Shown here in pieces: positions 32,541 to 37,274 of a stretch of DNA of 60,353 nucleotides. Made by a program: the position numbers and the translations under genes. A model generated the notes under the pieces. The model worked only from the letters and a program-made list of their open reading frames with translations. It had not been told where the DNA came from and did not search any database. Each line of letters opens with the position of its first letter. Within the stretch, counting starts at the first letter, position 1. This DNA is from Acholeplasmataceae bacterium (GTDB lineage: Bacteria; Bacillota_I; Bacilli_A; Acholeplasmatales; Acholeplasmataceae), in the NCBI GenBank assembly GCA_007692425.1, contig RECG01000017.1:1-60353 (forward strand). Reading direction: 5' to 3'.

Positions 32541-32544
32541 AAAT

Positions 32545-32581
32545 AAAAAAGATATTCGCAAGACGGCGAATATCTTTTTTG
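32545..32581 (+). terminator. Terminator of the suf operon
   Basis: AAAGATATTCGC, 7-nt loop, GCGAATATCTTT with T-run, just after the sufB stop. Confidence 0.88.
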
Positions 32582-32616
32582 ACCATGTTACAATAACATA
32601 TGAGAGGTGAACTTTC

Positions 32617-33408
32617 ATGCGAAAACTGCTCAGTATGCTTTATCTCATTGCATTGGCATTGTTCTTATCGGCATGTCATGAAGATCAGATGTTTGCCAGT
32701 TTGAACCAAACGATTGACAATCATCTTGAGCACCGTGCTGACACATATCAAGAACAAGTCGATTTCTTCAACAATCTCGCCATCGACATCATCCAATCGG
32801 CCGTCGCCGTCTACCGGCATGCCAGCACAGGCCTGGCCACCGGGTCAGGTGTCATCTTTGCCGTTGACGAGACCCATTACTATGCGTTGACGAACAATCA
32901 CGTCGTTTATGTCGAAGAAGGCGTCAGCCACTATTTCCGTGTCCACGATTATCTTGGTAACATCTATAGTGGCGAGCTCGTCGCGCAAGATCATCTTTAT
33001 GATCTGGCCGTGGTGCGGTTTCAAAAAGATGAAAGTCGTCCGGCTTTGCGTTTGATCAGCATGACGACTGACAATGCCGTTTTGGATGAACGCATCGCCA
33101 TCATCGGTTATCCAGCCAGCCAGATCAATGCCATCACCATGGGCAAGGTCAAAGGGTATCAACGGATCACACTTTCTGACACACCGCCTGAAGTGGTCGA
33201 CATCACCTTTGACGTGATGGCCATGGATGCCCCTGTCAAAGGTGGCAGCAGCGGCAGTCTTGTCGTCAATGAAGCATTTGAACTCACGGGCATTCTTTAT
33301 GCCGGCAGTCGGACTTCAAGGGTCGGGAACGTCATGACCAGTTATGCCGTGCCGATTGAAAAAGTGCTTGAATTTCTTGCCAAGCACGGTTTCGAGGTGT
33401 CATCATGA
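32617..33408 (+). CDS. Trypsin-like serine protease lipoprotein
   Basis: 263-aa lipoprotein (lipobox L-S-A-C, Cys20) with a chymotrypsin/HtrA-like fold and a complete triad: His in L-T-N-N-H-V-V, Asp in L-Y-D-L-A-V-V-R-F, Ser in G-G-S-S-G-S-L-V-V-N. There is no PDZ domain. It is likely an envelope protease anchored to the outer membrane face, perhaps for quality control. Its stop overlaps the start of a diverged paralogue (ATGA), so the two are made together. Confidence 0.87.
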   Translation: MRKLLSMLYLIALALFLSACHEDQMFASLNQTIDNHLEHRADTYQEQVDFFNNLAIDIIQSAVAVYRHASTGLATGSGVIFAVDETHYYALTNNHVVYVEEGVSHYFRVHDYLGNIYSGELVAQDHLYDLAVVRFQKDESRPALRLISMTTDNAVLDERIAIIGYPASQINAITMGKVKGYQRITLSDTPPEVVDITFDVMAMDAPVKGGSSGSLVVNEAFELTGILYAGSRTSRVGNVMTSYAVPIEKVLEFLAKHGFEVSS

Positions 33409-34157
33409 TGAAAAAACTGTTGTTGTTTCTGACATTGGCATCAAGCCTGTTCATGCTGGCGGGATGCGAGTTCAATGAAGTCAGTCAGGAGTATCGTGAT
33501 TTACGGCACGCCTACGATCGCATGATCGAAGATGAAATCGTCTCCACCCAAAACCTGGCCGACTTCATCAATCATGCGACCTTGGAGACCTCGCTTTCGA
33601 ATGTCAAAATCACCGTGGCCGTCTATGAAAACAACACCATCATCGAGACACGTTACGGTGCCGGCGTGGTGTTCGCATCCGTGGGCGCTCACGCCCATAT
33701 CCTGACCACTTACGGCCTGCTTGAAGTCACCGAAGGTACCAACATCCTGGTCAAGGTGCATGATTACTTGAACCGTGAACACATGGCATCTGTCAGGGTG
33801 CGTGCCGAAGAAGACCAAATGGGCATCATCCGGATCATCCGCCCCTTGGTCAATCCCTTGCCGGTCGTGACCATGGCCTTACAGTTGCCTTTTGCCGGTG
33901 AACAGGTGCTGCTCATCGGATTCCAGAACCAGGTCATCAATGCTATGAGCATGGGTCGGATCCTTGCCCTGCCTGATGATACACAAGATCTGATTACCAC
34001 CAATGTACCCACGGACATCTACGGCATGGGAGGCATGCTCGTCAACACCAGTCATGAGTTGGTGGGCATCCAAATCGGTGTGGATCCTTCAACCCAGACG
34101 GTCATCGCCCAACCCCTTGAAAGGATTCTGGCCTTGCTCGAACAATACGATGCCTAA
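33405..34157 (+). CDS. Catalytically dead protease-like lipoprotein (paralogue)
   Basis: 250-aa lipoprotein (lipobox L-A-G-C, Cys21) homologous along its length to the protease just upstream. Shared features include V-H-D-Y-L, I-G-F/Y-x-x-x-x-I-N-A-x-x-M-G and H/F-E-L-x-G-I. All three catalytic positions have changed: the T-N-N-H-V-V site reads T-T-Y-G-L-L, the Asp aligns with Gln in D-Q-M-G-I-I, and G-S-S-G-S reads Y-G-M-G-G. The reading frame is intact and coupled to its partner. I therefore read it as a functional pseudoprotease (regulator, adaptor or decoy), not a decaying gene. Confidence 0.8.
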   Translation: MMKKLLLFLTLASSLFMLAGCEFNEVSQEYRDLRHAYDRMIEDEIVSTQNLADFINHATLETSLSNVKITVAVYENNTIIETRYGAGVVFASVGAHAHILTTYGLLEVTEGTNILVKVHDYLNREHMASVRVRAEEDQMGIIRIIRPLVNPLPVVTMALQLPFAGEQVLLIGFQNQVINAMSMGRILALPDDTQDLITTNVPTDIYGMGGMLVNTSHELVGIQIGVDPSTQTVIAQPLERILALLEQYDA

Positions 34158-34189
34158 AAAAAACAAGCCGGTGACCGGCTTGTTTCATA
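34155..34189. terminator. Bidirectional terminator
   Basis: AACAAGCCGG-TGA-CCGGCTTGTT with A-run before and T-rich sequence after. It ends the protease pair on plus and the convergent membrane protein on minus. Confidence 0.82.
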
Positions 34190-34907
34190 TCAACGACTTG
34201 AACAGATTGACAATGTACTGATAGTAAGCTGTGGGATAATAAATATCGCTATGCAGGAAATAGACTTCCCCGGTGCTTTTGATGTAGTAGGCATTGAGCA
34301 CATGGATGTGTTGTCTGCCATGGTTGTCAAACGTTACCTGATCAACCTCAGCCTGGATGTTTTCATCGAATGTCTCGCCCGCTTTCACCTGGATGATCGA
34401 ATAATGCCGAAAGCTGGTTTTGTTTTGACGATATTCATGTTCAAGGTCATTGACAGCCTGGACAATATCCGGACTTTGGAATGAAAGATCAGGATTCTTC
34501 ATGAAGACCACGATTTCGAGCATGACCTGTCTCGCTGTATAAATGCGCTCGTCTTTGATCAACCTGTGCATCAAAATGAAAGTTCCGTAATCGCGACTGA
34601 AACGAAACCCTTTCTTGGATAGATAATTCGCCCATTGCTCGCTCAAGAGTTCATGTTTCGTCGGTACAGGCTTGGCGGCATGTTGCTTCAATTTCAAAAA
34701 GCCGACCAGTTTATTATAGTAGTAGATGCGTGGCCGGAACCAGAATGTCACCAGCATCAAGGCAATCATCAAAACCAAAAACAAGGTCATCTTGAGATCG
34801 ACCGACCATGCGGTCGTCAACAATAAAATCGATAGCCCGATGAAACCCAGGATGACCACGATCAAACTGATCATGTAAAGACGTTGTTTGCTTCTGACCT
34901 GATTCAT
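34185..34907 (-). CDS. Membrane protein of unknown function
   Basis: 240-aa protein with two adjacent N-terminal membrane segments (about 10-30 and 38-57) and a cytoplasmic domain of about 175 aa rich in aromatic and charged residues. The ATG at 34907 has GGGAGGG upstream; the longer reading begins with non-ATG codons and is rejected. I do not recognise a family. Its promoter region is divergent to a PucR-type regulator gene, which might therefore control it. Confidence 0.65.
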   Translation of the reverse strand: MNQVRSKQRLYMISLIVVILGFIGLSILLLTTAWSVDLKMTLFLVLMIALMLVTFWFRPRIYYYNKLVGFLKLKQHAAKPVPTKHELLSEQWANYLSKKGFRFSRDYGTFILMHRLIKDERIYTARQVMLEIVVFMKNPDLSFQSPDIVQAVNDLEHEYRQNKTSFRHYSIIQVKAGETFDENIQAEVDQVTFDNHGRQHIHVLNAYYIKSTGEVYFLHSDIYYPTAYYQYIVNLFKSLI

Positions 34908-34945
34908 GAAGACCCTCCCAACCAGCAACCAAATTATAACATATA

Positions 34946-36863: not shown

Positions 36864-37274
36864 ATGATCACATCGATTGAAAACAACGGTCAAGGGGCCG
36901 TGATATATCAACATACAGGCGCATGCCAGGTCAAATCATCCAATCTTGGCGTGATCAAACAATGGTGCATTGAGCACTTGTTCACGTATGAAGGCTATGC
37001 CAAAGCGGTGAAACAAACACTTGGCATCGCTTACCGGGTGCCACTCTATTTAAGAGAAGACCTGCAATTGTTTCCCACCCGCCGGATCCGTGATGTCGAT
37101 AATGTCTGGATCAATGCGGCCGCAATCAAGACAGTCACGCCCACCACACACGGCGCTTGTCTGGTTTTTCATAACGGCCGAAGACTTGAACTTGACATGT
37201 CGCTTCACAAGGTCAGACGACAAATCGACGTTCTCGACACCATCCGTGCCGTCAAAGGTAAACACTTTCATTGA
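36864..37274 (+). CDS. ComK-like protein
   Basis: 136 aa resembling the competence transcription factor ComK. The core V-P-L-Y-L-x(5)-L-F-P-T-R-x-x-x-D-x-D-N-V-W-I-N-A-A-A-I corresponds to the ComK P-I-x(n)-P-T-x-S-x(n)-C-x-W-I pattern. Next come V-F-H-N-G-R-R-L-E-L-D-M-S and a C-terminal R-R-Q-I. The start is not secure: the ATG at 36864 has only a weak AAAAAAG upstream and sits right after a terminator. If correct, it would bind AT-boxes to activate DNA-uptake genes; no com genes are in the window. Confidence 0.65.
   Translation: MITSIENNGQGAVIYQHTGACQVKSSNLGVIKQWCIEHLFTYEGYAKAVKQTLGIAYRVPLYLREDLQLFPTRRIRDVDNVWINAAAIKTVTPTTHGACLVFHNGRRLELDMSLHKVRRQIDVLDTIRAVKGKHFH

Follow-up and report, generated by a model that had tools for sequence, protein, structure and literature searches.

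The HtrA/Deg proteases, which we take to be family S1C, usually carry PDZ domains and form trimers, and among the Mollicutes the MIP/DUF31 serine proteases of Mycoplasma are surface lipoproteins with a trypsin-like fold. Dead copies of serine proteases are not rare as such; the available part of one survey lists 42 putative inactive homologues in a set of 966 proteases from 91 prokaryotic genomes, and no overlapping active/dead pair was seen described in that part (PMC2605481). In the magnetotactic bacteria, an active trypsin-like HtrA protease, MamE, and a dead HtrA relative, MamO, lie in one gene island. The excerpts available of this work report that MamO is needed for MamE-dependent proteolysis with its own active site dispensable, and that active/inactive HtrA-type pairs arose repeatedly in these bacteria (PMC4794232). 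In Clostridioides difficile, as far as the accessible text goes, a pseudoprotease likewise controls the activation of an active protease, with CspB and its pseudoprotease relatives CspC and CspA acting in one pathway (PMC6636752); these are soluble spore proteins of the subtilisin fold, not homologous to the proteins described here.

The locus studied lies in a window of 60,353 nt, which is the whole stretch of Acholeplasmataceae DNA analysed, from a genome of 1.45 Mb in 29 contigs. It encodes two predicted tandem lipoproteins, here called P1 and P2, whose closest precedent is MamE/MamO. MamO differs in having a TauE transporter domain and in keeping two of the three triad residues, as stated in the excerpts of PMC4794232, whereas P2 is a 250-aa lipoprotein with no second domain and, in the window, none of the triad residues. 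Unlike MamE and MamO, the genes of P1 and P2 overlap and probably descend from one tandem duplication. MamO was the best NCBIfam match of P2, yet it scored 18.1 bits against a cut-off of 800 and P2 has no TauE domain, and orthology with MamO was rejected. P1/P2 is a real, conserved variant of the active/dead HtrA-type pair, and our literature search found no description of it in the open PMC papers searched. The words "protease", "peptidase", "lipoprotein", "HtrA", and "proteolytic" are all absent from the main text of the paper on Peloplasma aerotolerans.

Layout of the Gene Pair

The features of the locus are as follows.

32544..32581, strand not given: hairpin with T run between sufB and P1 (-18.4 kcal/mol, z -6.5)
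32603..32609, + strand: AGAGGTG, Shine-Dalgarno-like site of P1, read from the sequence
32617..33408, + strand: P1, 263 aa, HtrA-like serine protease lipoprotein without PDZ domain, predicted to be active; lipobox LSAC20, helix at residues 26-56 near the N terminus, protease domain ~62-257
32899..32901, + strand: His95 codon of P1, predicted catalytic
33001..33003, + strand: Asp129 codon of P1, predicted catalytic
33250..33252, + strand: Ser212 codon of P1, predicted catalytic, in GSSGS
33394..33399, + strand: GAGGTG, Shine-Dalgarno-like site of P2 within the 3' end of P1, read from the sequence
33405..33408, + strand: ATGA, in which the P1 stop overlaps the P2 start by 4 nt, read from the sequence
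33405..34157, + strand: P2, 250 aa, pseudoprotease lipoprotein; lipobox LAGC21, helices at residues 28-60 near the N terminus, HtrA-like barrel intact at 66-249, Gly104/Gln138/Met208 at the triad positions
33714..33716, + strand: Gly104 codon of P2, at the His position
33816..33818, + strand: Gln138 codon of P2, at the Asp position
34026..34028, + strand: Met208 codon of P2, at the Ser position
34161..34185: hairpin directly 3' of P2, facing a convergent gene at 34185-34928 (-16.3 kcal/mol, z -6.0)

The first-pass annotation had described tandem lipoproteins of a common trypsin-like fold joined by an ATGA overlap. Both open reading frames lie where it placed them, both encode a Trypsin_2 domain and a lipobox, and the overlap is present. 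The hairpin between sufB and P1 was terminator-like on the minus strand in a terminator scan and is a probable terminator, possibly bidirectional, so that the pair is probably outside the suf transcript. The hairpin 3' of P2 received no call from the scan. With strong hairpins on both sides, P1 and P2 look, from the layout, like a bicistronic unit of their own.

Homology, Domains, and Predicted Fold

P1 and P2 are homologous over their full length, with 25% identity by BLASTP (E 5e-21) and 100% probability in a profile-profile comparison (E 2.4e-41). Pfam Trypsin_2 was recognized above its gathering score of 27.6 bits in P1 (71.1 bits) and in P2 (31.8 bits); the domain was also recognized in 32/32 P2 orthologues. 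Structure prediction of each protein, suggested in the first-pass annotation, gave confident models of HtrA-family protease domains; the AlphaFold2 models, single chains built from alignments of 32 orthologues each, had a pLDDT of 90.8 for P1 and 91.3 for P2. The P1 model matched DegP (VIA Z 27.7, 2.3 Å over 196 residues), and the P2 model matched DegS (VIA Z 26.6, 2.2 Å over 190 residues) with DegP and DegQ tied. These models suggest that P1 and P2 share the chymotrypsin fold of the HtrA/Deg type.

P1 resembles HtrA, DegP, and DegS (S1C) in this protease-domain fold, as does P2, and in its His-Asp-Ser triad; unlike them, it carries a predicted lipid anchor and no PDZ domain, a Pfam search having found none in P1 or P2. 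Its best NCBIfam score was 56.0 bits, for a TIGR02037 cut-off of 416.2, and judged by its sequence P1 falls short of full HtrA membership on both counts. Similarity of P1 to the Mycoplasma MIP/DUF31 proteases was low (18.6 bits, gathering score 27), with the NCBIfam MIP models far below cut-off.

Both proteins are predicted lipoproteins with a signal peptide and a lipobox (LSAC and LAGC). The lipobox pattern was found in 32/32 P1 and 31/32 P2 orthologues, the exception being the P2 of genome G087, which is without the lipobox Cys; the Pfam lipobox model LPAM_1 matched only 3/32 P2. One or two helices are predicted between the lipid anchor and the barrel in P1 and in P2. The conservation of these helices was not significantly different from that of the barrel (p 0.17), and the idea of the N-terminal stalk as a specially conserved interface was dropped.

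The Catalytic Triad Is Kept in P1 and Lost in P2

The triad of P1, His95/Asp129/Ser212, is kept in 32/32 orthologues. In the P2 of the window, a multiple alignment places Gly104, Gln138, and Met208 at these positions, while the two-sequence BLAST alignment of P1 and P2 slips by one and places Met under Asp. An intact triad in the first protein, the replacements Gly, Gln, and Met in the second, and an intact frame and lipobox of the second gene (a 250-aa open frame, LAGC) had all been proposed from the DNA, and each holds.

At least two of the three triad residues are gone in all 32 complete P2 orthologues. His survives in G002 only, Ser in G044 only, and Asp in none, so that no genome retains two of the three. 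Across the 32 sequences, 10, 7, and 10 residue types occupy the His, Asp, and Ser positions, the commonest being Asp or Glu, Gly, and Asn, respectively. A 33rd P2, incomplete because the contig of G001 begins inside it, has lost Asp and Ser at the two visible positions. No Ser, Thr, or Cys is invariant among the 32 P2 orthologues; Cys21 of the lipobox and Thr101, which adjoins the former His, are nearly so. His-Asp-Ser is retained in 40/41 other relatives placed in the tree, the exception being the second gene of another tandem (locus L157, see below). The loss in P2 is not a chance event, since it recurs in 32/32 orthologues while 32/32 P1 and 40/41 relatives keep the triad.

Selection on P2 and Origin of the Pair

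P2 frames are open and full-length in 32/32 genomes. The first-pass annotation had named an intact triad or broken frames in the second gene of relatives as evidence against a pseudoenzyme and had proposed a dN/dS analysis; neither feature was seen in the 32 complete P2 genes, and omega contradicted neutral decay. Nei-Gojobori omega, computed on the 14 closest of 496 genome pairs, was 0.038-0.273 in 13 of them, with dS infinite in one, and these values are rough because dS is high (0.8-2.3). In the pair G078/G079, pn was 0.06 and ps 0.50. P2 is less conserved than P1, showing the lower identity in 489/496 genome pairs. Open frames, triad loss in 32/32, and low omega together make P2 a conserved pseudoprotease and not a decaying gene, and its status as a maintained pseudoprotease is strongly supported by sequence, fold model, and selection.

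The open reading frames at 79 loci (L098-L176) were scanned for tandem partners, and 19 rows entered the protease tree as other relatives. In a tree without long branches, P2 and P1 each formed one clade (SH-aLRT 100 and 85, respectively), and all 35 further relatives grouped on one side (90), so that P1 and P2 come out as sisters. With all rows included, support for the P2 clade was 67; both are quick trees, the second leaving out 8/105 rows as long branches or duplicates. As P2 is one clade and sister to P1, a single tandem duplication is the probable origin of the pair and would have happened in an ancestor of one Acholeplasmataceae clade.

Distribution and Gene Order

The pair occurs in 33 of the 88 family genomes, namely all 33 of genera g1, g10, g11, g13, and g15. 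Both genes are complete in 32 of these carriers; in G001, P1 lies off the contig end. No P2 orthologue was found in the 55/55 other family genomes. In a profile scan of 160 genomes of the order, the top match outside the family was a 357-aa frame at 99 bits, against 205.9 bits for the weakest complete P2 orthologue. Among the 88 family genomes we found no P1 without P2 (the P1 of G001 being beyond its contig), and no P2 away from P1 was found in these genomes or in the order-wide scan. The order P1-P2 was identical in all 32 complete pairs; 31 of them overlap by 4 nt and one by 8 nt. The survey of related genomes called for by the first-pass annotation thus returned the same order, triad pattern, and open frames in 32/32.

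In 33/33 genomes of the five genera, the pair forms a single cassette, with sufB on one side and a conserved block on the other. Wide context was available for 18 pair loci, some of which stop early where the contig or the fetched stretch ends; these read sufB, the pair, and then an HTH_30 regulator gene, usually followed by genes for an MsmK-type ATPase, a ComK-like protein, and PGK; in genus g1, a convergent 240-aa gene intervenes. None of 20 loci from pair-less genomes has the pair, and 8 of them show the sufB-to-HTH_30-msmK block without it, although some end early. Because the flanking suf, HTH_30, ABC ATPase, ComK-like, and PGK genes are conserved even where the pair is absent, they give no specific functional hint, and assigning function from the neighbors was abandoned. 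A phage origin was likewise discarded, no encoded relative being found in viral contigs.

On a concatenated species tree, the presence of the pair needs two changes, a pattern that would fit a single gain plus a loss in the small g14 genomes; this is a quick tree of 33 rows, from which G086 was dropped for too few columns.

Three side observations concern this region. In G087 (C1:1560919-1562325, in L039), the sufB match has 3 in-frame TAA codons and two shorter frames, and the adjoining pair is intact. In G025, two copies of the sufB-P1-P2 locus score equally and lie about 99 kb from each other (C1:1594723-1597735 and 1693653-1696665; L122 and L123), either a large duplication or an assembly repeat. 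The ComK-like gene of the window (36864-37274; Pfam ComK, 53 bits) belongs to a conserved family block with the MsmK-type ATPase and PGK, despite these bacteria being wall-less.

Probable Translational Coupling and Rate Correlation

The ATGA overlap had been read as a sign of production in fixed ratio. The overlap is real and coupling is likely, yet the case for a fixed ratio is weaker than proposed. A Shine-Dalgarno-like motif precedes P2 in 29/32 genomes, compared with 11% of random 18-mers of P1 open reading frames, and a fixed P1:P2 ratio does not follow because P2 usually has a site of its own. Judged from these sequence features, translation of P2 is probably coupled to that of P1, yet with its own initiation.

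Species-corrected distance residuals of P1 and P2 correlated at 0.76, higher than in any other of the 66 pairings of 12 local genes, in a comparison that covers 18 of the 32 genomes and in which pairs are non-independent. As fast controls, the genes for ComK and for the HTH_30 regulator gave 0.49 and 0.53 with P2. The P1-P2 value may be helped by saturation, both being fast genes of one fold. That P2 is tied to P1 is supported by their constant adjacency and by the highest rate correlation of the 66.

P2 as a Proposed Non-Catalytic Partner of P1

It is very probable that the dead copy has a function in its own right, most likely to control the live one or to assemble with it. We favor P2 as a non-catalytic partner of P1, most likely as a regulator or as one subunit in a mixed assembly, with a rough probability of 0.6. 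This reading is the most economical because of the fixed co-occurrence, order, overlap, compartment, fold, and rate correlation, and MamE/MamO offers a good precedent by analogy. Genes may share a fixed operon without their products touching, and contact between P2 and P1 stays an inference. The faster change of P2, N-terminal helices no better conserved than the barrel, and the missing lipobox Cys in G087 also count against this reading.

In the proposed mechanism, P1 and P2 would be the two products of a bicistronic unit that followed a tandem duplication, both presumably exported and lipid-anchored on the outside of the single membrane. P1 would be the working serine protease. P2 would have retained the HtrA-like barrel, together with the helical stalk at its N terminus, and abandoned catalysis; in a mixed assembly it might then contact P1 and activate, restrain, or feed it, doing the job of the PDZ domains or homotrimer loops in classical HtrA proteases. 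The default guess for the substrate, from the HtrA fold, would be misfolded surface or secreted proteins. The genome of the window also encodes a separate HtrA-like Trypsin_2 protein of 357 aa, which has a long C-terminal extension and is a further candidate for quality control beside the pair.

Among the alternatives, the one that survives best is that P2 was repurposed for a separate surface job, such as binding of a ligand, metal, or client, or a non-proteolytic chaperone role, and is merely co-expressed with P1. Its faster evolution than P1 would suit such a role, as would two reports, each in the portion available, that the MamO protease domain has its own job in binding metal via surface histidines (PMC4794232) and that HtrA proteins can serve as chaperones (PMC12826053). 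However, a separate job sits poorly with the failure to find P2 apart from P1 in the 88 family genomes and the order scan, and with a P1-P2 rate correlation that tops 66 gene pairs; we regard it as possible, if on the unlikely side. That P2 mainly titrates or sequesters substrate, acting as a decoy site or dominant-negative brake rather than as part of an assembly, is consistent with the barrel preserved in its model and with co-transcription as the layout suggests, but the high sequence variability at the former active-site positions is a poor fit with a conserved substrate-binding cleft and makes this reading improbable. More improbable again is a P2 that is still an enzyme through a non-classical nucleophile or triad: the lone His of G002 and Ser of G044 might be taken as its remnants, but the diversity at the triad positions, with no sequence keeping two of three, and the want of any invariant Ser, Thr, or Cys, with Cys21 and Thr101 nearly so, speak against it. 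A decaying duplicate, which the faster divergence of P2 might recall, is scarcely credible, neutral decay being ruled out by full-length open frames in 32/32, pn far below ps in close pairs, retention across five genera, and a Trypsin_2 domain recognized in 32/32.

Other Tandem Pairs

At L157:2965-4579, in the Bacilli bacterium isolate RGIG6178 from sheep rectum, an intact-triad lipoprotein is followed by a dead trypsin-like lipoprotein with Asn-Gly-Asn at the triad, whose gene overlaps the first by 8 nt, read as ATGTATAA. Its placement in the tree is unsure because of a very long branch, and a pair of this type occurs in only 1 of the 4 genomes of its family. The L157 pair may be independent of, and possibly convergent with, that of the window; if true, this apparently separate active/dead tandem would make hetero-assembly a recurring solution. 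Two gut Clostridia loci, L136 and L142, carry tandem trypsin-like lipoproteins that both have the triad, possibly an earlier stage of active/dead pairs.

Implications

Pairs of active and dead enzymes are a test of how pseudoenzymes originate and work. P1/P2 is a clean natural series for this purpose, with one duplication, one clade, and 32 complete pairs of fixed order and overlap. The pair was gained and lost as a single cassette at a syntenic site, and lone triad residues survive in two species only. At least one carrier, the free-living Peloplasma aerotolerans, is in culture, which makes it directly testable, with two small soluble domains, whether the dead barrel controls the live barrel. 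For this wall-less clade, we put forward tentatively, as a rather doubtful proposal, that an obligate hetero-assembly at the surface complements the classical HtrA design of one gene, a homotrimer, and a PDZ sensor; in it, a dead barrel replacing the PDZ domain would sense the signal or client and switch the live barrel on or off.
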